A stretch of 64,000 bases of DNA. Origin: Treponema sp. (GTDB lineage: Bacteria; Spirochaetota; Spirochaetia; Treponematales; Breznakiellaceae). The position numbers and the translations under genes were made by a program. Location of the stretch: NCBI GenBank assembly GCA_031256035.1, contig JAIRRJ010000041.1:1-64000 (forward strand). The letters run 5' to 3'. Of this stretch, positions 4,578 through 13,386 are shown one piece after another; the first letter of the stretch is position 1, and each line of letters opens with the position of its first letter. Under the pieces are notes generated by a model that was not told the origin of the DNA, made no database searches, and saw only the letters and a list, made by a program, of their open reading frames with translations.

Positions 4578-7500
4578 TTAGTTCATCTCCATCCATTTTA
4601 TTTTCAGTTTGACGAAAGTTTTCGCCGCCGTGTCAAAATCAAAATCTTCCATCTGCTCCATGAGCTTTTCACTTCCCGGTAAATTACGAAGACCTTCAAT
4701 CAGTTTCAGACACGCCGGGTTGCCGCTTTTAAGCAGAGGTTCCAGTTCTTCAATCAAAGCGCGGGCTTCTTTCGCGTCAATGGGTCTTGGGGGAGCGGCT
4801 GCATGAACAGCGGTGTCAGCCGTCATCAGTGAAAACTCTTTCAAAGCCGCGTCCAATTCAGCTTTAAGCGCGTTCATTTCCTCAGGCGTTACAATGTTTT
4901 TCTCGTTCAATAAATGGCTTTCCACAACGGCGGCGGCTTTTTGCAGATCTGTTTTACCGAGTTGTCCCGCGTTGCCTTTCAGTCCGTGAACCAGCCGGTG
5001 CGCCAGCTTGATGTCTCCGCTTTCTATCGCTTTATCAATCTCATTGTATCTATTTTGACCTTCCTTAATAAAATTGCGGATCAGCCTTTGCCGCAGCTCT
5101 TCATCGGCTTGAGCAAATTGAATTTCCGTTACGGATTGTTTTTTCACCGGCGTTAAGTGCCTCAGGAGGCATTTCCACAATTCCTGTGAGGTGAAAGGTT
5201 TGCCCATGCAGTCTGCCATCCCGTTCGCAATGTATTGTTCCCGGTCATCGGACATGACGTTTGCTGTCATGGCTATTACCGGTGTTTCTGTTTTCAGTTT
5301 GATTATTTCCGCCGCCGCCTCAAGCCCGTCCATCACAGGCATATGAATATCCATGAAAATTAAATCAAAGCGTTTTTCGCCGTTTTGTATACGCTGTTTG
5401 ACCGCTTCCACCCCTTCCCTGCCGTTTTCTGCTACAACAGTTTTAAGCCCCACCCGCGCAAGATGTTCGCATATAAGCTGCTGGTTCATCTTGTTGTCTT
5501 CGCAGAGCAGAATCTCTCCGTCAAAAACAGGCTTCTCAATCTGTTTGTTACCGGAGAACCGTTCATGCTCCGGTATGTCTGTTGTTTTGAAGGTCATCTC
5601 AAAACTAAACTTGCTGCCCAAACCGGGAGCGCTTTCCACGGAAAGTGTACCGCCCATCAGATCAATAATGTTTTTGGTTATGGCAAGACCTAAGCCTGTG
5701 CCGCCGTACTTGCGTGTCGTCCCCGATTCCGCCTGGGTAAAGGGTTCAAAGATTTTAACTATCTGTTCACTTGTCATGCCGATGCCGGTGTCTTTAATCT
5801 CAAAATGTATGGTGATGTCGCCATTCGCCGTTCCGGTTTTTTCAGAGACTGACGCTGCCATTTTGACTGAGCCGGTATTGGTGAACTTTACCGCGTTGGA
5901 GAGCATATTAATAATCACCTGGCGCAGCCTTGTCGGATCTCCCATCAGTTTTTTGCCGATGAACGGCTCTGCATAAAAATGCAGGGCAATGCCTTTTTCT
6001 TCGGCTTTCGGCGTGATTAATACCCGGCAGGCGGAGAACAATTCATGCAGGTCAAAAGGAATGTTTTCCAGTTCCATTTTTCCTGACTCGATTTTTGATA
6101 TATCCAGAATGTCGTTAATTATCTGTAAAAGCCATCCTGAATTATCGATAATTTTTTTTAGATATTCTTTTGTTTTGAGGTTGACCGCGTTATACAATGC
6201 CAATTCTGAAAAACCGATGACGCTGTTCATGGGCGTCCGCAGCTCGTGGCTCATGTTGGCAAGAAACATGGATTTGGCATGGGAAGCCGCTTCCAGTTTT
6301 ACCAGAGTGTGCCGCATATCCCTGGCAATCTCGCCCCGCTGCATTATGCTCACAACGATTATACCCCATGAGCGCAGGGCGTATTCTTCTTCTTTGGTAA
6401 AAAAACGCTGGCTGCTGAGGTCATCATAGCTCACCAGTCCCCAGAATTCTCCCTTGAGGAATACCGGAACAACCAGTTCTGATTGAATGCCATATTGTTC
6501 CAGATGCCGCCGCGCCTGTTCGGATAAACGGCTGATCGGGCCGCTTACGCTTTTCCCGCCTGCCAATATTTTCTCCAGCATCGGCGACACGTCTTGATAC
6601 AGGAACGTTGTTCCCAACGGTACGCCCGAAAATCCCTCTTTTGTCCATTGATAGAGCATTTTGTACCGGAGTTTTCCATCATCCCCCCGGTGGTTCTGCC
6701 AAATATTGAAACGGTCAACAGCCGTGTAACAGCAGATCATTTCAAAGCCCTGCGCAATTGCGTTTTCATAGTTCTCTGGTTCTGATTCAAGGAGAAACGC
6801 GGCAGCTTCATTAATTATGCCTAATAGGGCATAATGTTTTTCACGCTCAGCGGAGCGCTTTTGAACGAGTTCTTCAAGTTCGGCTTCCGCCTCATCCCTC
6901 CGCTTTGCCATCTCAGAGGCAATTTTTTTCTCTTCGGTAATGTCCTTTAACGCACCCGCGATTCTGAGCGGATACCCGTTTTTATCGCGGATACTTTCGC
7001 CATAAGCATGAAAATAACCGTATTCTCCGTTTTTCTTTAACAGCCGGTATTCCGTGTCGAATGATGTTTTACCGGTCATGTCAAGCAAATGCTTCACATA
7101 ATTGTCAACAGCCCTTTCTTTATCGTCCGGATGCAGCAGGTCAGTCAGACTGTTGAGTACATTGGGAAAATCAAGCTCATTTGCATATCCAAGCATTTTT
7201 CTGATCTGATCCGACCAATTAAACGCATTTGCAAGGTTTGTCGGATCATCCTTCACAAGCTCTGTATCCCACAAGCCGATTTTAGCCGCCTGAACAACAA
7301 GTTTTAATTTTGCTAATTGCAGTTCATTTAACTCATGCGCTTTAGTGATAATTTCGTTTTGCTTTCTTTCATCATGGATGTCCCGCAGCAAACCGGCTGC
7401 CCTTACGGGTTCTCCTGTTGATTTTCGCATAGTGTCACCTAATGCCTGAAAATAGCGGTATTCTCCGTTTTTTATTTTCAAACGGTATTCGACATTGAAC

Positions 7501-7946
7501 GGCGTTTTGCCCGTATAATCCGTCAGATGCCGGGTAAAGGCATCAAGCGTCCGTTCTTTGTCTTCAGGGTGAAGACGGTCGCTCCAGCTATTGAGCCTGT
7601 TGGGAAAATCCTTCTCACCGGTAAATCCCAGCATTTGGCGGAATTCGTCCGACCAAATAAATACATTGTCCGGATTGACCGGGTCGCCGTCTGTTACGTC
7701 CATGTCCCACAGACCTGCTTGAAGGGCTTTCTCCGCGAGTTTGTATTTCATGATTTCATATCGCGTACTGTATTGCTGATATTGAATCGCAAGCGAAAGA
7801 TTTTCGAATATTTCTTTTATTTCCGGGGAAACGCCGGCAGCCGGCGTTTTTATGGATATGTCTTTTGATCCGCTCTCTTTTAACAGGCGTCTGCTTTCCG
7901 ACAGCAGCACCTCAATGCCCGAATACTGAGGGGCGGAATTATTCAT
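4578..7946 (-). CDS. Soluble hybrid histidine kinase: PAS-PAS-GAF-HisKA-HATPase-REC-HPt
   Basis: This is an about 1122-residue kinase with no membrane segment, so it is cytoplasmic. Two near-repeat PAS_3 domains (about 85-190 and 220-345; motifs GLWDMDV and GLWDTEL) precede a GAF-like domain (about 390-545), HisKA (His about 568 in MSHELRTP), HATPase (DTGIGM, GGTGLGL), receiver (Asp about 866 in FMDIHMPVMDG) and an HPt domain (His about 987 in LVHGLKGNAGQLG). All elements of a complete internal phosphorelay are present. An upstream TTG at 7964 is also possible, but I prefer the ATG at 7946, which sits six bases after a perfect TATAAT. It is the first gene of the minus-strand kinase operon and diverges from another hybrid kinase. 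The PAS and GAF domains suggest an intracellular redox, gas or small-molecule input; the ligand is not readable. Confidence 0.9.
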   Translation of the reverse strand: MNNSAPQYSGIEVLLSESRRLLKESGSKDISIKTPAAGVSPEIKEIFENLSLAIQYQQYSTRYEIMKYKLAEKALQAGLWDMDVTDGDPVNPDNVFIWSDEFRQMLGFTGEKDFPNRLNSWSDRLHPEDKERTLDAFTRHLTDYTGKTPFNVEYRLKIKNGEYRYFQALGDTMRKSTGEPVRAAGLLRDIHDERKQNEIITKAHELNELQLAKLKLVVQAAKIGLWDTELVKDDPTNLANAFNWSDQIRKMLGYANELDFPNVLNSLTDLLHPDDKERAVDNYVKHLLDMTGKTSFDTEYRLLKKNGEYGYFHAYGESIRDKNGYPLRIAGALKDITEEKKIASEMAKRRDEAEAELEELVQKRSAEREKHYALLGIINEAAAFLLESEPENYENAIAQGFEMICCYTAVDRFNIWQNHRGDDGKLRYKMLYQWTKEGFSGVPLGTTFLYQDVSPMLEKILAGGKSVSGPISRLSEQARRHLEQYGIQSELVVPVFLKGEFWGLVSYDDLSSQRFFTKEEEYALRSWGIIVVSIMQRGEIARDMRHTLVKLEAASHAKSMFLANMSHELRTPMNSVIGFSELALYNAVNLKTKEYLKKIIDNSGWLLQIINDILDISKIESGKMELENIPFDLHELFSACRVLITPKAEEKGIALHFYAEPFIGKKLMGDPTRLRQVIINMLSNAVKFTNTGSVKMAASVSEKTGTANGDITIHFEIKDTGIGMTSEQIVKIFEPFTQAESGTTRKYGGTGLGLAITKNIIDLMGGTLSVESAPGLGSKFSFEMTFKTTDIPEHERFSGNKQIEKPVFDGEILLCEDNKMNQQLICEHLARVGLKTVVAENGREGVEAVKQRIQNGEKRFDLIFMDIHMPVMDGLEAAAEIIKLKTETPVIAMTANVMSDDREQYIANGMADCMGKPFTSQELWKCLLRHLTPVKKQSVTEIQFAQADEELRQRLIRNFIKEGQNRYNEIDKAIESGDIKLAHRLVHGLKGNAGQLGKTDLQKAAAVVESHLLNEKNIVTPEEMNALKAELDAALKEFSLMTADTAVHAAAPPRPIDAKEARALIEELEPLLKSGNPACLKLIEGLRNLPGSEKLMEQMEDFDFDTAAKTFVKLKIKWMEMN

Positions 7947-7952
7947 CCCTTC

Positions 7953-7958
7953 ATTATA
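7953..7958 (-). promoter_or_regulatory. -10 element placed for a leaderless transcript of the PAS-PAS-GAF kinase
   Basis: A perfect TATAAT on the minus strand ends six bases before the ATG at 7946 (intervening GAAGGG). Transcription from it would begin about at the A of the start codon. The -35 region is weak (TATCAA-like at 17 bp). The GAAGGG could alternatively act as a very close ribosome-binding site for a start further in. Confidence 0.45.
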
Positions 7959-8020
7959 CAGCAAAAAAATCCAATTTGATATGGGTTTGCGCCATTTTTT
8001 TTCTCTTTTTTCTTTGTTAA

Positions 8021-8049
8021 TTGCTCATAACCCTCTGTCATGGTACAAT
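8021..8049 (+). promoter_or_regulatory. Promoter of the Cache hybrid kinase (leaderless geometry)
   Basis: TTGCTC at 8021-8026 is followed by a 17-bp spacer and TACAAT at 8044-8049. Only six bases (TTGCTT) separate the -10 box from the ATG at 8056, and no Shine-Dalgarno sequence precedes that ATG. The predicted transcription start coincides with the start codon. Confidence 0.55.
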
Positions 8050-8055
8050 TTGCTT

Positions 8056-10851
8056 ATGTCGATGCGTGTAAAAGCCGCCCTGGTTATCATGTCGATTGTT
8101 TTCGGTGTAACCGTGGCTTTCTTTTTTTTAAGTTTGTCATTTACAAGCCAAAATCTTGTCAAAACCATAGAGCAGGATCTGTCTCTTGTCAGAGATATAG
8201 CCGATGATCTTGTCGCTACCAAAATCCGCCTGTTAAAATCAGACGGAGCCACGGTAGCTGAACGCCTGCTTAATGCCGGCTCAACCAAAGAAATGACGGA
8301 ACTCATGGAACTTCAACTGGATGAATTTCCTGATTTTATTTCTTTGACTGTTTATGACCGGCAGGATGTTATCGTCAACTGCGGCGAACCTATTTCAGAT
8401 AATATTTTCGCTGTCGAAGACAATAACATACAGGTGGCCTTTGACGGAGAAAGTATTTTTTCCACAACGCATTATAACATCGCATCCGGAACATTTATCA
8501 TGCATCTATTCGTGCCAATGGGTGAGGAGTTTGTGTTATCTGCAACTGTTTCCGGGATGTTGTTTGCCGATCTGCTGTCAGGCTACCGGCTGTGGCGGAC
8601 GGGCAATCTTTTTATACTGGACGAGTCAGGCACTTTTATCGCGCACTTCCGCCACGACATGGTTTTGAACCGGTACAATTTTGTTGAAGAATCCAAAATA
8701 AATCCCGATTACCGGGTTATCGGTGAATTCTACCAAAATATGTTAACAACCGAGGAAGGCTCAGGTACTTACAACTTTGAAGGAGTAGAACGGCTTTGCA
8801 TTTATAAACATATTACAGGTTCAAGGGCGGGCTGGCGTATAGCAATATCCGTTCCATTAGACGAAAGCCCCCTCGTGAGCCTGCGGAAGGATTTGCTGTT
8901 TTCCGCCTTGTACTTTATGATCGCGGGCGTACTGATTTCAATCTTTGTCTCCGGACTTGTTGCGCGCCCTTTTTACAAAATCGAAGAACAAAACCGCAGC
9001 CTTGCCGAACTTAACGAATCTGTCCGCGCCGCTTCCGAAGCAAAGTCCAATTTTCTGGCGCGAATGAGCCATGAAATGCGCACCCCTCTTAACGCAATAA
9101 TAGGCTTGTCTTCTCTTGCTTTGGAAGCCAATCAGTTGAACGATGAAACTTCATCAAACCTTGAAAAGATAAACAATGCAGGCACAACTCTCCTCAGTAC
9201 CGTTAACGACATACTGGACATTTCAAAAATCGAAGCGGGTAAGCTTGAACTGGTAACGGCGGAATACGAAGTCGCCAGTATTCTGAATGACACCATAACA
9301 CAAAGTATTCTGCACATTGGTGAAAAGCCCATCAAATTTGCCCTTGAGATTGATGAAAATCTGCCCATACGCCTGTGCGGTGATGATTTGAGGGTTAAGC
9401 AGATTATGAATAACCTTTTGTCGAATGCTTTCAAATATACAAAAGAAGGCACGGTAGAACTTAACGTTAGTTGTAACCAGGACAATGATACAGTTTGGCT
9501 GATTGCGCGAATCAGGGACTCGGGTATCGGTATACGGAGCGAGGATGTAGGCAACTTATTCTCCGAATATGCGCAGATGGATGTGAAATCAAACCGTAAG
9601 GTAATGGGAACCGGTCTTGGGCTGCCAATTGTCAAAAGACTCGCTGAGATAATGGATGGTTCTATAACTGTTGAAAGTGAATACGGAAAGGGAAGCGTTT
9701 TCACGGTGCAAGTTAAACAAAAATTTGTTACTGACAAAATAATAGGGGCGGAGGTTGTGAACAGTTTGAAAAACTTCCGTTTTTCCGATCAAAAACGCCG
9801 TAATGGTTCCGCCTTGTTGCGAATTAATCTGTCTTATGTGCGGGTGCTGGTGGTGGACGATGTCGAAACCAATCTTGATGTGGCAAAGGGTATGATGAAG
9901 CCTTATAAGATGAAAATTGACTGCCGGATGAGCGGAAGGGAGGCAATTGACGCCATACGAAATGAAGAAGTCCGCTACAATGCGATTTTCATGGATCACA
10001 TGATGCCGGAAATGGACGGGATAGAAGCTGTGAGGATTATCCGTGAGGAAATTGGAACTGAATATGCCAAAACTGTGCCAATAATTGCCTTGACAGCTAA
10101 CGCAATCCTGGGAAATGAAGAAATGTTTTTAAGCAATGGTTTTCAGGCTTTTTTGTCCAAACCCATTGAAATTGGCCGCCTTGACGCTGTACTGCGGCAA
10201 TGGGTACGGGACAAAACCCTTGAAGCTGAACTTAAGATCAAAGAAAACGAACTGCCGGAAATGACAACGGTGCGAACTCTCTCTTTTCAGGTTGACGGTG
10301 TTGATTTACAAAAAGGACTTGATCGTTTTGGCGGCGATGAAGAATCCTATCTGCAAATTCTGCGCTCTTACACCACAAATACCCCGCGCCTGCTTACGGT
10401 TGTGAAGGGGCTGAATAAAGAAAATCTGGCGGACTATGCAATTACGGTTCATGGGATAAAAAGTTCCAGCCGGAGCATTGGCGCGGAATCTGTGGGAAGC
10501 AAGGCGGAAGCTTTGGAAAAAGCGGCGAAAGAAGGCGATTTTAATTTTGTAACCGCCAATAATTCCGTTTTTATTTTTGAAATAAAAAATCTCGTTGACA
10601 ATTTGGCAAAGGCGCTTGAGCAGATAACGCCGCAAAAACAGAAAACAAAAAAAGACAAACCCGGCAGGGAAGACCTGCTAAAACTCCGCGCCGCCTGCGA
10701 GAGTTTTGATATGGACAGCCTGGAAGCAGCGATGGCGCAGATTGAAACTTATGAATATGAAAAAGACGGCGAACTTGTAACATGGCTCAGGGAAAACGCA
10801 GACCAGCTAAATTTTTCGGAAATTACTGAAAAATTGTCGGCTATAGCGTAG
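8056..10851 (+). CDS. Membrane hybrid histidine kinase: Cache-type sensor, HisKA-HATPase-REC-HPt
   Basis: This is a 931-residue sensor kinase. A first membrane helix (about 5-27), an extracytoplasmic Cache-like domain (about 30-278) and a second helix (about 280-302) precede HisKA (His about 339 in MSHEMRTPLNAIIG), HATPase (DSGIGI, GTGLGLPI), a receiver (Asp about 647 in FMDHMMPEMDG) and an HPt domain (His about 798 in VHGIKSSSRSIG). The frame stays open upstream to 7981, but the ATG at 8056 is chosen because a well-spaced promoter ends just before it and the preceding codons look non-coding. It is paralogous to the kinase at 48106-50877 (shared FMDHMMP receiver motif and domain order). The ligand is unknown. 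It converges with the hydrogenase-like chemoreceptor, overlapping its 3' end by 11 bases. Confidence 0.9.
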   Translation: MSMRVKAALVIMSIVFGVTVAFFFLSLSFTSQNLVKTIEQDLSLVRDIADDLVATKIRLLKSDGATVAERLLNAGSTKEMTELMELQLDEFPDFISLTVYDRQDVIVNCGEPISDNIFAVEDNNIQVAFDGESIFSTTHYNIASGTFIMHLFVPMGEEFVLSATVSGMLFADLLSGYRLWRTGNLFILDESGTFIAHFRHDMVLNRYNFVEESKINPDYRVIGEFYQNMLTTEEGSGTYNFEGVERLCIYKHITGSRAGWRIAISVPLDESPLVSLRKDLLFSALYFMIAGVLISIFVSGLVARPFYKIEEQNRSLAELNESVRAASEAKSNFLARMSHEMRTPLNAIIGLSSLALEANQLNDETSSNLEKINNAGTTLLSTVNDILDISKIEAGKLELVTAEYEVASILNDTITQSILHIGEKPIKFALEIDENLPIRLCGDDLRVKQIMNNLLSNAFKYTKEGTVELNVSCNQDNDTVWLIARIRDSGIGIRSEDVGNLFSEYAQMDVKSNRKVMGTGLGLPIVKRLAEIMDGSITVESEYGKGSVFTVQVKQKFVTDKIIGAEVVNSLKNFRFSDQKRRNGSALLRINLSYVRVLVVDDVETNLDVAKGMMKPYKMKIDCRMSGREAIDAIRNEEVRYNAIFMDHMMPEMDGIEAVRIIREEIGTEYAKTVPIIALTANAILGNEEMFLSNGFQAFLSKPIEIGRLDAVLRQWVRDKTLEAELKIKENELPEMTTVRTLSFQVDGVDLQKGLDRFGGDEESYLQILRSYTTNTPRLLTVVKGLNKENLADYAITVHGIKSSSRSIGAESVGSKAEALEKAAKEGDFNFVTANNSVFIFEIKNLVDNLAKALEQITPQKQKTKKDKPGREDLLKLRAACESFDMDSLEAAMAQIETYEYEKDGELVTWLRENADQLNFSEITEKLSAIA

Positions 10852-12994
10852 CTTCTTTCTTCTCCATGTGAATCAACTTTTCGATCATTTCACGATCGTT
10901 ATTCTCTATGGCGCGGACAATATCCGCCGACATTGCGGCAAGGAAATTAATATCGTAACGGAGTTTATCAGTAAGGGATAACATTTCGCCGTAATCAGTT
11001 TTTACTATGGTGCTTGTTTCACGCAGATTCCCCAGCGCATTTGTAATGCCGGAACTTTCGGTTGAAAGTTCACCCAAAGTATCAATAAGCTGAGTCATTG
11101 TACCCGCGAAACCGTTAATTTCCTTGGACATACTGTTAATCAGGGCGCCGGTATCGTCCGAGCGTTTTGATGTAGCGTTGATTCCGGCAATGATGTTTGC
11201 AAGGGTTTGGGAGATATTCCGCGAATTTTCCCTCGTGCTTTCGGAAAGATGGCGAATTTCATTGGCTACTACAGCGAAGCCCTTGCCCGCATCGCCGGCG
11301 TGAGCCGCTTCGATGGCGGCATTCATGGAAAGAAGATTGGTGTTAGACGCAATTACGCTGATGATCCTTATCGCTGACGCTATGCCGTCTATGGACTGGG
11401 AAATGCCCTGAACAGCCTGTATCGTCTCTCTCATGGCTTCCTGTCCCCTGGCGGCGTTATCAATTAATGTCTTTATGGAATCCCGTTTCTGCCGCGAAAG
11501 TTCGGAAGTACTCTTTATGGAAGTTATCATTTTTCCCGTAAGCGCGGAAGACTCATCAACCGATGCCGATTGTATATTAATGCTCTTGTCCAGCTGCTCT
11601 ACCAGATTATTGATCTCTTCGATCATACCAAGCGCGCGGGAAATGTGTTCCTTAAGCTGTTGATTGATGTATATTGTAGTCTTTTTTTCTTCTTCAAGAA
11701 GCGCCATGTTATAGTGGGCGCAGTTGTCAGGCTTGTTGAGTTTATTAAAAATCGCCGTTGCCATTGACTTGCAGCTTCCGTAACCGCAGGCTGTACAATC
11801 GAATATATCATCCTTGGAGAGTTTTTTCAGACTGTGGTAGACCTTGGACAATTCACTTTCGTTGGGATGCACCACCTTGTAATTTCCTGAAAGGTCCTGA
11901 TATTCCCGTTTGTATTGACCGGGTTTCCAGTAACGATTCAAAACCTTGTGATATTTTTTGTACAACCTTTCCTGTTGTTTTGGATTAAGCTGATTTTCAA
12001 GCTTGGCGCTGCGTTTGCGAACGGGGCTTTCAAGTTCGTCCATTGTTTTGTGGACATTCCCCGTACCGGGGCCGCCGTTGCAGCCCATTTCACAGTTGAG
12101 GCAGTCCACGAGCAGCGGAAATTCAATATCCGGCTCATTGAGTTTTCCGGCAACTCCGCGTAAATAATGGTAGATTGTATGAACACCTTCGATTTTGCGC
12201 GTATTCCGCCTGATGCCGGGCACAAAACGTTCGGCAGTATCCAAAAGGCCGCCGGGAGCGGAAAATGTTACCGCCCGTTCAGCCGGCGCTCCCACATATT
12301 CCACTGCGGGATAATTTAAAAGGTCTATCTTTTTCTGCTCAAGAGATTGTTTAAGTGCAAGCATGGTAACGTTGTAATCCCCCAATCCGGTTTCTTCAAA
12401 TTCACGCTTCTTGGCAATACAGGGAGAAATAACCGCAACCTTATAACTTTGATATTCAGGGTAATAACTTTTAATCATTTTGATTGTATGCAGCATGGGG
12501 CTGTCCGCCGGCGCAAGATAGGGCAGCAACTCAGGACGGTAAATTTCGATATAACTTACGATGGCGGGGCAGGGCTGTGCAATCACCATTCTGGGTTTTT
12601 TTTCCTTGATGTAATTAACATAGGAAACAACGGTAAGTTCCGCGCCGAAGCTCACGTCAAACATTGCCTTGACGCCCAAAGACTGAAGATAACCGTTTAA
12701 TCTGAGATAATTTCCTGAAAAGACCGAAGCGACCGCCGGGGCGACAACGGCAATTATTTTCTCCCTTTGTTTAAGGTCTTCAAAAAAACGATCCGTATCG
12801 TCTATAGGTTTACGGGCATCGTGGTGGCATGATGCGATACAGTTTCCGCAGCCCAGGCACAGATCGTGGTTGATCATTATCTTTTTCCCTGAACCGTCCG
12901 CGCAGTATTTTACAGGGCATGCAGTTATACAGGCATAACAATTAATGCATTTTTCTTCATCAATTTTAATTACCGGGGCAAGTCTACCTGTCAT
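10841..12994 (-). CDS. Soluble chemoreceptor fused to a [FeFe]-hydrogenase-like H-cluster domain (HydS/HsfB-like sensor)
   Basis: The protein has 717 residues. A 2x[4Fe-4S] ferredoxin domain (Cys16/19/22/26 and 46/49/52/56) leads into an H-cluster domain (about 75-320) that keeps four candidate ligands: Cys142 in AQPCPA, Cys192 in SPCIAKK, and Cys301 and Cys305 in NCEMGCNGG. A further Fe-S motif follows (Cys400/403/408/425), then a methyl-accepting chemotaxis signalling domain (about 455-700) with the hairpin-tip sequence VVANEIRHLSEST. The proton-relay Cys of catalytic enzymes (the first Cys of TSCCP) is a Pro here, and the TS is replaced. That fits the sensory hydrogenase groups better than a bulk H2 enzyme. 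There is no membrane helix, so it is a cytoplasmic receptor that probably reports H2 or redox state to CheA/CheW (inference). A good ribosome-binding site (AGGAG) precedes the ATG, and a CheY-like gene lies 23 bases upstream. Confidence 0.9.
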   Translation of the reverse strand: MTGRLAPVIKIDEEKCINCYACITACPVKYCADGSGKKIMINHDLCLGCGNCIASCHHDARKPIDDTDRFFEDLKQREKIIAVVAPAVASVFSGNYLRLNGYLQSLGVKAMFDVSFGAELTVVSYVNYIKEKKPRMVIAQPCPAIVSYIEIYRPELLPYLAPADSPMLHTIKMIKSYYPEYQSYKVAVISPCIAKKREFEETGLGDYNVTMLALKQSLEQKKIDLLNYPAVEYVGAPAERAVTFSAPGGLLDTAERFVPGIRRNTRKIEGVHTIYHYLRGVAGKLNEPDIEFPLLVDCLNCEMGCNGGPGTGNVHKTMDELESPVRKRSAKLENQLNPKQQERLYKKYHKVLNRYWKPGQYKREYQDLSGNYKVVHPNESELSKVYHSLKKLSKDDIFDCTACGYGSCKSMATAIFNKLNKPDNCAHYNMALLEEEKKTTIYINQQLKEHISRALGMIEEINNLVEQLDKSINIQSASVDESSALTGKMITSIKSTSELSRQKRDSIKTLIDNAARGQEAMRETIQAVQGISQSIDGIASAIRIISVIASNTNLLSMNAAIEAAHAGDAGKGFAVVANEIRHLSESTRENSRNISQTLANIIAGINATSKRSDDTGALINSMSKEINGFAGTMTQLIDTLGELSTESSGITNALGNLRETSTIVKTDYGEMLSLTDKLRYDINFLAAMSADIVRAIENNDREMIEKLIHMEKKEATL

Positions 12995-13017
12995 GTTATT
13001 TCTCCTTACATCAGGAA

Positions 13018-13386
13018 TTAAGGTATATATTTTTCTATCGTTTCAATCAGTACATCCCGTACTACCGGTTTGGTCAGGACATCGGCAGCGCTGGAATTCC
13101 TCGCCTTGTCAAAAAAATCCTGCCCGGTGTTGCCGCTGACAATAATGATCGGTACATCAATATAACTGGGGATTTTCCGTATGTCCTTAAGAAATTCAAA
13201 ACCGGATATGTTCGGCATTTCGATATCCAGCAGAATAATATCCACTTTGTTCTGATTCAAAAAGCTGAGGGCTTCCGCCGCTGATTTAACAACCCGGAGA
13301 TCGTACCTGTGGCTCAAAATTACGTTAAATTCCTTTAGTTGCTGCACATTGTCGTCAATTGCCAGAATTACCTTTTTACCTGCCAT
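13018..13386 (-). CDS. Single-domain CheY-like response regulator
   Basis: This is a 122-residue stand-alone receiver domain. The acidic pair is in AIDDN (about residues 10-12), the phospho-acceptor Asp is in LLDIEMPN and the conserved Lys is in LTKPV near the C-terminus. There is no output domain, so it acts by protein contact, either at the flagellar switch or as a phosphate sink or relay. It starts with ATG after GGTGG and is followed 23 bases later by the hydrogenase-like chemoreceptor, so the two are very probably one transcription unit. That context suggests a receiver dedicated to this receptor or to a nearby kinase (inference). Confidence 0.88.
   Translation of the reverse strand: MAGKKVILAIDDNVQQLKEFNVILSHRYDLRVVKSAAEALSFLNQNKVDIILLDIEMPNISGFEFLKDIRKIPSYIDVPIIIVSGNTGQDFFDKARNSSAADVLTKPVVRDVLIETIEKYIP

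Follow-up and report, generated by a model that had tools for sequence, protein, structure and literature searches.

In anaerobic guts and sediments, H2 is a main currency. Among the [FeFe] hydrogenases, HydDB (2016) lists a group C2, 'Chemotactic (putative)', whose role its accessible text gives as undetermined and whose members may sense H2 and act via methyl-accepting chemotaxis proteins (MCPs) (PMC5037454). One C2 sequence was found in a survey of Hydrogenedentota, according to an excerpt of that paper (PMC11406978). For the sensory groups C and D, the consulted sections of PMC8163306 describe a C-terminal cluster of the pattern Cx2Cx4Cx16C, and for TamHydS, with Ser at M353 and Leu at M497, a working H-cluster. 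Here we describe a 717-residue protein of this kind, and the receiver gene paired with it, from Treponema sp. (assembly GCA_031256035.1); the window analysed is the stretch of 64,000 nucleotides at positions 1 to 64,000 of contig JAIRRJ010000041.1. On balance we favour the view that the protein is a cytoplasmic chemoreceptor whose input module is a sensory-type [FeFe] hydrogenase, and that H2 is a plausible signal for it.

The features of the locus are listed below with the residue numbers of the encoded protein. C299, M353 and M497 are CpI numbers, taken in part from the consulted sections of PMC8163306.

10841..12994 (stop included), minus strand: hydrogenase-domain chemoreceptor open reading frame (ORF), 717 aa, ATG start (ORF call)
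12815..12973, minus strand: two [4Fe-4S] ferredoxin motifs (residues 8-60) with ligands C16, C19, C22, C26 and C46, C49, C52, C56 (Pfam; invariant in a 48-row alignment)
12068..12760, minus strand: H-domain (Fe_hyd_lg_C, residues 79-309; Pfam; predicted local distance difference test score, pLDDT, of 90-98 in the model, with hydrogenase fold matches)
12569..12574, minus strand: P1 motif, Pro141 at the relay-Cys position and ligand Cys142 (alignment)
12401..12427, minus strand: P2 motif SPCIAKKRE (residues 190-198), S190 at the M353 position, ligand Cys192 and Lys195 (alignment)
12080..12103, minus strand: P3 motif CLNCEMGC (residues 298-305), extra Cys298, Leu299 at the M497 position, ligands Cys301 and Cys305 (alignment)
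11717..11800, minus strand: C-terminal Fe-S motif C400-x2-C403-x4-C408-x16-C425 (PF04060; group C/D pattern)
10904..11719, minus strand: long antiparallel coiled coil (helices 426-565 and 567-697; model, pLDDT ~75)
11246..11323, minus strand: MCP hairpin tip, the CheA/CheW-binding region (residues 558-583; core matches the genome's other MCPs)
13018..13386, minus strand: stand-alone receiver-domain gene, 122 aa (ORF call and Pfam)

Pfam placed Fer4_10 at residues 9-56, Fe_hyd_lg_C at residues 79-309 (108 bits, cut-off 22), the FeS family PF04060 at residues 399-426 and MCPsignal at residues 512-672 (101 bits, cut-off 35), giving the order two ferredoxin motifs, Fe_hyd_lg_C, PF04060 and MCPsignal. 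The receiver matched PF00072 with 79 bits, and the domain scores of both proteins are far beyond chance. No membrane helix was detected in the receptor by 19-residue hydropathy (maximum 1.44); among the rows listed for the same genome, the paralogue reached 1.63 and the other 15 rows 2.4-3.6. An AlphaFold2 model of the receptor (mean pLDDT 85.7, predicted template modelling score 0.66) had 10-residue pLDDT means of 82-98 over residues 1-330, which hold the ferredoxin motifs and the H-domain; between residues 331 and 350 the means fell to 73-77. The predicted coiled coil is formed by two helices, 140 and 131 residues long, joined by a turn at 566 (pLDDT ~75). When the model was compared with the PDB by Foldseek, all 50 matches listed were [FeFe] hydrogenases, the first with an E value of 3.8e-19. 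The protein is an MCP of the cytoplasmic type, having a hairpin with a conserved tip and no membrane helix, and it joins an H-domain to an MCP signalling domain as in group C2. This architecture is near certain. A sequence-only reading of the window had placed ferredoxin, H-cluster, Fe-S and MCP domains in one 717-residue chain without a membrane helix, directly after a single-domain receiver gene; Pfam and hydropathy agree with the former, the PF00072 ORF 23 bp upstream bears out the latter, and the comparison by structure prediction that it had proposed gave the hydrogenase matches above.

In the alignment with group A rows, C299 corresponds to Pro141, M353 to Ser190 and M497 to Leu299. C142, C192, C301 and C305 align with the four H-cluster ligands and the lysine of PCxxK (K195) is retained. 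These five residues are invariant across the 48-row alignment, which includes five C/D-like sensors, and so are the 12 accessory-cluster cysteines (the eight of the ferredoxin motifs and C400, C403, C408 and C425). The last four fit the group C/D pattern exactly, and with the lost relay Cys299 and the replaced M353 (S190) they make three traits of the sensory groups that are present in the receptor. Among HydDB sensory sequences, proline occupies the relay site in ~10% and serine the M353 site in ~32%, by the portion of PMC10055695 at hand. The same positions were followed in 46 relatives, namely 45 of 52 homologous loci and the paralogue of the same genome (L004); L010, L050, L051 and L053-L056 were left out as they had no strong match with a start near the N terminus. 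Pro141 was kept in 45/46 and C142, C192 and K195 in 46/46, and C301, C305 and Cys298 were present in all 45 that have letters there. Among receptors of the window's family, the motif QPC[A/P] was found in 31/32 and DCL[N/S]C in 32/32. The alignment thus agrees with the earlier claim that all four ligands (Cys142, 192, 301, 305) are kept. The exchange of the proton-relay Cys for Pro141, which had been singled out together with it, is real but not peculiar to this protein, being the norm in its relatives.

In the set used for the phylogenetic tree, Pro stands at the relay position in 23/25 rows labelled Q1 and in 4/6 hybrid-kinase rows; Ser at M353 is found in 25/25 Q1 and 3/3 D-like rows, Met in 10/10 group A rows, and Leu at M497 in 25/25 Q1 rows. 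Cys298 occurs in 25/25 Q1 rows and in L161, which are all 26 rows of a sub-clade (support 98/94, a starred node). It is absent from the other five hybrid-kinase rows of the 31-row clade described below, and from 38/38 rows of the A (10), B (6), PAS (11), histidine kinase (HK; 6), sigma-54 (2) and D-like (3) types. Pro for the relay Cys and an extra Cys beside a ligand are therefore added here as a signature of this sub-clade; no mention of the extra Cys was found in the passages of the hydrogenase literature examined.

Departures from the ligand set were seen elsewhere. Within the clade, L163:450-3122 (minus strand; G062) carries Cys in the relay place (QCCP), and its PCxxK Lys is replaced by Asn. 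Two H-domain sensors of the HK-type group, L102:1074-2984 (minus strand) and L113:1792-3738 (plus strand), have Asp in place of one H-cluster Cys and Thr or Ser in place of the PCxxK Lys, and are candidates for naturally cofactor-free sensors. Eroded H-cluster motifs mark the NuoG-like/hydrogenase paralogues (468-479 aa) at L002:775-2178 (plus strand; contig C72 of the same genome) and L106:1362-2798 (plus strand); in L106 the ligand Cys is missing from both P1 and P2. Matches in other genomes of the genus fall on ORFs of comparable length (463-513 aa).

A tree of 69 H-domains was built from 244 columns, with group labels assigned from motifs and Pfam outputs and not from HydDB. The window receptor lies inside a 31-row clade with support 100/100. 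This clade is nested in a 53-row set (97/84), all members of which keep the C-terminal cluster cysteines, and may group more closely with the PAS, HK and sigma-54 types (90/95, not a starred node); group A is separate from it (100/100). Descent of the H-domain from sensory and not catalytic forms is thus well supported by the tree, and the sensory kind named in the sequence-only reading has come through the phylogeny proposed for it. The equation of the clade with HydDB C2 is made from architecture and not by the HydDB classifier.

The output joined to this sensor module varies. Of the 46 relatives, 40 have an MCP output, two (L036, L039) a PAS-HisKA-HATPase-receiver output and one (L035) none, the remaining three being fragments (L045, L048, L049). 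A regular expression for the MCP tip matched only 20/46 relatives and 28/32 family receptors; it was too strict, since a Pfam scan of 20 proteins, 19 of them missed by the expression, found an MCP domain in all 20. In the window's family, L157-L162 and L164 carry related H-domains on ORFs of 986-1165 aa, and Pfam scans of two of them, L157 and L161, showed both to be HisKA-HATPase-receiver proteins. The C-terminal end of L163 is a HATPase, and its likeness to CheA was judged from reading the sequence. The predicted occurrence of the sensor module on hybrid kinases and on one CheA-like kinase is new here. The clade is recorded in at least eight phyla (Spirochaetota, Bacillota, Thermodesulfobacteriota, Acidobacteriota, Bacteroidota, Fibrobacterota, Ignavibacteriota and Hydrogenedentota, among others), with the nearest relatives recorded as metagenome-assembled genomes of Treponema or Spirochaetes. 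The near-identical loci L032 and L033 are recorded as Alphaproteobacteria and Bacteroidales, respectively; one of them is probably mis-binned.

From the domain order, ligand set, sensory ancestry and intact MCP tip, as read from sequence or model, a working scheme can be proposed. H2, or the ferredoxin pool via the two N-terminal clusters, would shift the H-cluster's redox state, and this shift would be relayed to the C-terminal [4Fe-4S] cluster, which sits at the base of the coiled coil. The MCP hairpin would be altered in turn, and CheA activity with it, so that the cell would steer in H2 or redox gradients. In this scheme we infer that the H-cluster is occupied, that H2 is the signal and in which direction the cell responds. 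The predicted genes for CheA/CheW and for HydE, HydF and HydG coexist with the receptor in its genome, the three maturases scoring over cut-off and lying together on contig C81. The overall interpretation of the sequence-only reading, an H2-taxis receptor, is thus partly supported; as an idea it is not new, being that of HydDB group C2 in the accessible text of PMC5037454.

Several observations weigh against this reading. The pocket matches no single studied group: PAS/HK-type rows mostly have Gly at M353, and D-like rows carry Met or Gln at M497, unlike the Leu of the receptor. The stem of the clade is long, with 0.96 changes per column in the 69-row tree and 1.7 in a quick tree of 87 rows (103 aligned, minus 11 near-duplicates and 5 short rows, without the hybrid kinases L157-L164), and may mark altered chemistry. 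In a Clostridium survey, C2 hits were discarded after checks among which was an H-cluster motif test, by an excerpt of PMC9431212, and in the open-licence literature no experiments on any clade member were found. The distribution of maturases also failed to follow that of the receptor. Among 74 family genomes at least 85% complete, 54 were carriers, defined by a match with 45% identity or more and including the fragments in G087, G105 and G117, and 20 were non-carriers. With E cut-offs of 1e-100 for HydG, 1e-80 for HydF and 1e-60 for HydE, HydG was present in 33/54 carriers vs 10/20 non-carriers (p 0.43), HydF in 34/54 vs 17/20 (p 0.09), HydE in 36/54 vs 12/20 (p 0.60) and any of the three in 41/54 vs 17/20 (p 0.53). 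All three were missing at these cut-offs from 13/54 carriers, including the single-contig G052 and the 99%-complete G084.

Each of these 13 carriers has an Fe_hyd_lg_C match of at least 295 bits; in the matched proteins of G052 and G084, motifs P2 and P3 were examined and are intact. The co-occurrence test is therefore neutral. Another survey covered 51 genomes, the receptor's own and those of 50 of the 52 homologous loci: HydG scored over cut-off in 38, HydF in 38 and HydE in 11 of the 20 checked, with none of the three in 7/51. As all 51 genomes hold at least two Fe_hyd_lg_C matches each, the absence of maturases is not attributable to the receptor. Maturase co-occurrence as proof of an H-cluster was rejected, given the lack of association in the 74 family genomes. 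In that family, G052, G053, G084 and 13 other genomes have none of HydE/F/G at the cut-offs, all 16 have Fe_hyd_lg_C, and in the three examined (G052, G053 and G084) group A-type P2 and P3 motifs are intact; either assembly gaps or divergent maturation may explain these 16.

The same observations bear on a different account, in which the H-domain has its [4Fe-4S] cluster alone, or an inactive site, and what is signalled to CheA is how far the ferredoxin pool is reduced, not H2. The missing association with HydE/F/G, the 13 maturase-less carriers and the long stem are in its favour, as is the Pro found for the relay Cys in nearly all relatives, since Pro cannot carry protons. So are the Asn for the PCxxK Lys in the clade member L163 and the loss of ligands in L106, a hydrogenase-like paralogue of the same family, which indicates that the H-domain fold can outlive its cofactor. 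However, the four ligands are kept, and the Lys too in all but two of 31 clade rows, which is beyond expectation for an idle diiron pocket. The strong Fe_hyd_lg_C matches in the 13 genomes suggest that the missing maturases may be assembly gaps, and an H-cluster is present in two sensory enzymes that lack the relay Cys, as the available sections of PMC8163306 and PMC10055695 report. A redox or ferredoxin receptor is the less probable account but a serious rival.

The receiver gene lies on the same strand as the receptor. The next gene upstream (start 13485, plus strand) is divergent from the pair and the next downstream (7981-10851, plus strand) is convergent with the receptor ORF, overlapping it by 11 bp; the pair is therefore a two-gene unit. 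By the 3' end of the receptor, the ORFs at 7981-10851 (plus strand) and 4578-7964 (minus strand), read by eye, are large and resemble hybrid sensor kinases. The receiver retains the acid pair, phospho-Asp, Ser and Lys and by sequence appears phospho-competent. Its beta5 segment is ADVLTKP, with Val three residues before the Lys (K-3) and no aromatic residue; in CheY the switch aromatic stands at that place. Its best NCBIfam matches were PorX, BarA, PleD and DivK-like receivers, none over its own cut-off. A receiver lies directly upstream of the receptor in nine genomes (the window, L005-L008, L011, L125, L127 and L128; L126 is the same place as L011 and was counted once). None was found there in L009, the paralogue of the same genome or L129-L156 (28 receptors; L146 with only 231 bp upstream), nor in distant relatives, although upstream sequence is short or absent at several of their loci; in L019 a 356-aa receiver-containing ORF lies just downstream. 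Partnership with a receiver as a general trait was rejected, the gene being confined to close relatives. The description of the receiver as the receptor's 'own CheY' is not upheld, given the missing aromatic, the NCBIfam matches and the restricted pairing. The receiver may be a feedback or phosphate-sink partner.

Two membrane MCP genes of the same genome (L068/L079 on C73; L069 on C42) also adjoin a stand-alone receiver gene, so receptor-receiver pairs recur in it; those receivers are of a type related to that of the window but with an aromatic residue at K-3.

A response other than flagellar, such as gene control via the paired receiver, would suit a partner that is not CheY-like, as well as the two further MCP genes beside receivers and the hybrid kinases driven by related H-domain modules. 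It would also suit the result that no receiver ORF in the 14 kb around cheA was matched with the window receiver as query. We consider it improbable, since the core of the receptor's MCP tip is nearly that of the membrane MCPs of its genome, the receiver is missing beside most relatives and CheA is at hand. By ORF reading, CheA is one of three CheW-domain proteins in this genome, which has 18 full MCPsignal places and two short pieces; in another, CheW is joined to a CheR-like part, and its neighbour is a CheX-like gene. The reading as a bulk catalytic hydrogenase whose signalling tail is accessory, although it would explain an H-domain with all ligands, is very improbable and was rejected by the tree, which excludes the receptor from group A, while the relay Cys, M353 and M497 are all replaced and no gene for an electron-transfer subunit was recognised among the ORFs at 6-18 kb.

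The sensory chemoreceptor with H2 as its plausible signal can be extended, tentatively, to the whole clade. Its H-domain would be a distinct modular H2/redox-sensing domain in which the relay Cys is fixed as Pro and a new Cys298 stands by a ligand, so that the site might read H2 or thiol/redox state without turnover. It would be attached to MCP, hybrid-kinase and CheA-like outputs, and one spirochaete lineage would have gained a dedicated tuning receiver, making a two-gene H2-taxis unit. Neither a functional study of a hydrogenase-MCP fusion nor a bacterial H2-taxis receptor of known molecular identity was found in the open-licence literature. The clade offers a soluble candidate for such a receptor with a defined readout, CheA activity, and whether 'sensory hydrogenases' truly sense H2 becomes directly testable in reconstituted chemotaxis.

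Among comparable systems, the work of Ballor et al. (2012), which by its title reportedly concerns hydrogen sensors of termite-gut treponemes, shares both the treponemes and the idea of an [FeFe] hydrogen sensor. With HydDB group C2 the receptor shares an [FeFe] hydrogenase linked to methyl-accepting chemotaxis proteins, for which the accessible text proposes H2 sensing (PMC5037454); the window adds the receiver partner gene. TmHydS of Thermotoga maritima (group C/M2f) has, in the sections of PMC8163306 and PMC10055695 at hand, two N-terminal clusters, the H-domain, a lost relay Cys, the C-terminal Cx2Cx4Cx16C cluster and a signalling domain after that cluster, all as in the receptor. It differs in carrying a PAS domain where the window receptor has an MCP output, and in having Gly, not Ser, at M353 and Ser, not Leu, at M497; the window receptor further has Pro for the relay Cys and the additional Cys298. 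TamHydS (group D/M2e) shares Ser at M353, Leu at M497, the C-terminal cluster and the lost relay Cys; in the same part of PMC8163306 neither a PAS domain nor a fused MCP is reported for it, and the sequences that we label D-like form a clade separate from the window receptor in the tree. The receptor is thus of a kind already catalogued as putative, to which this lineage brings new additions of its own.

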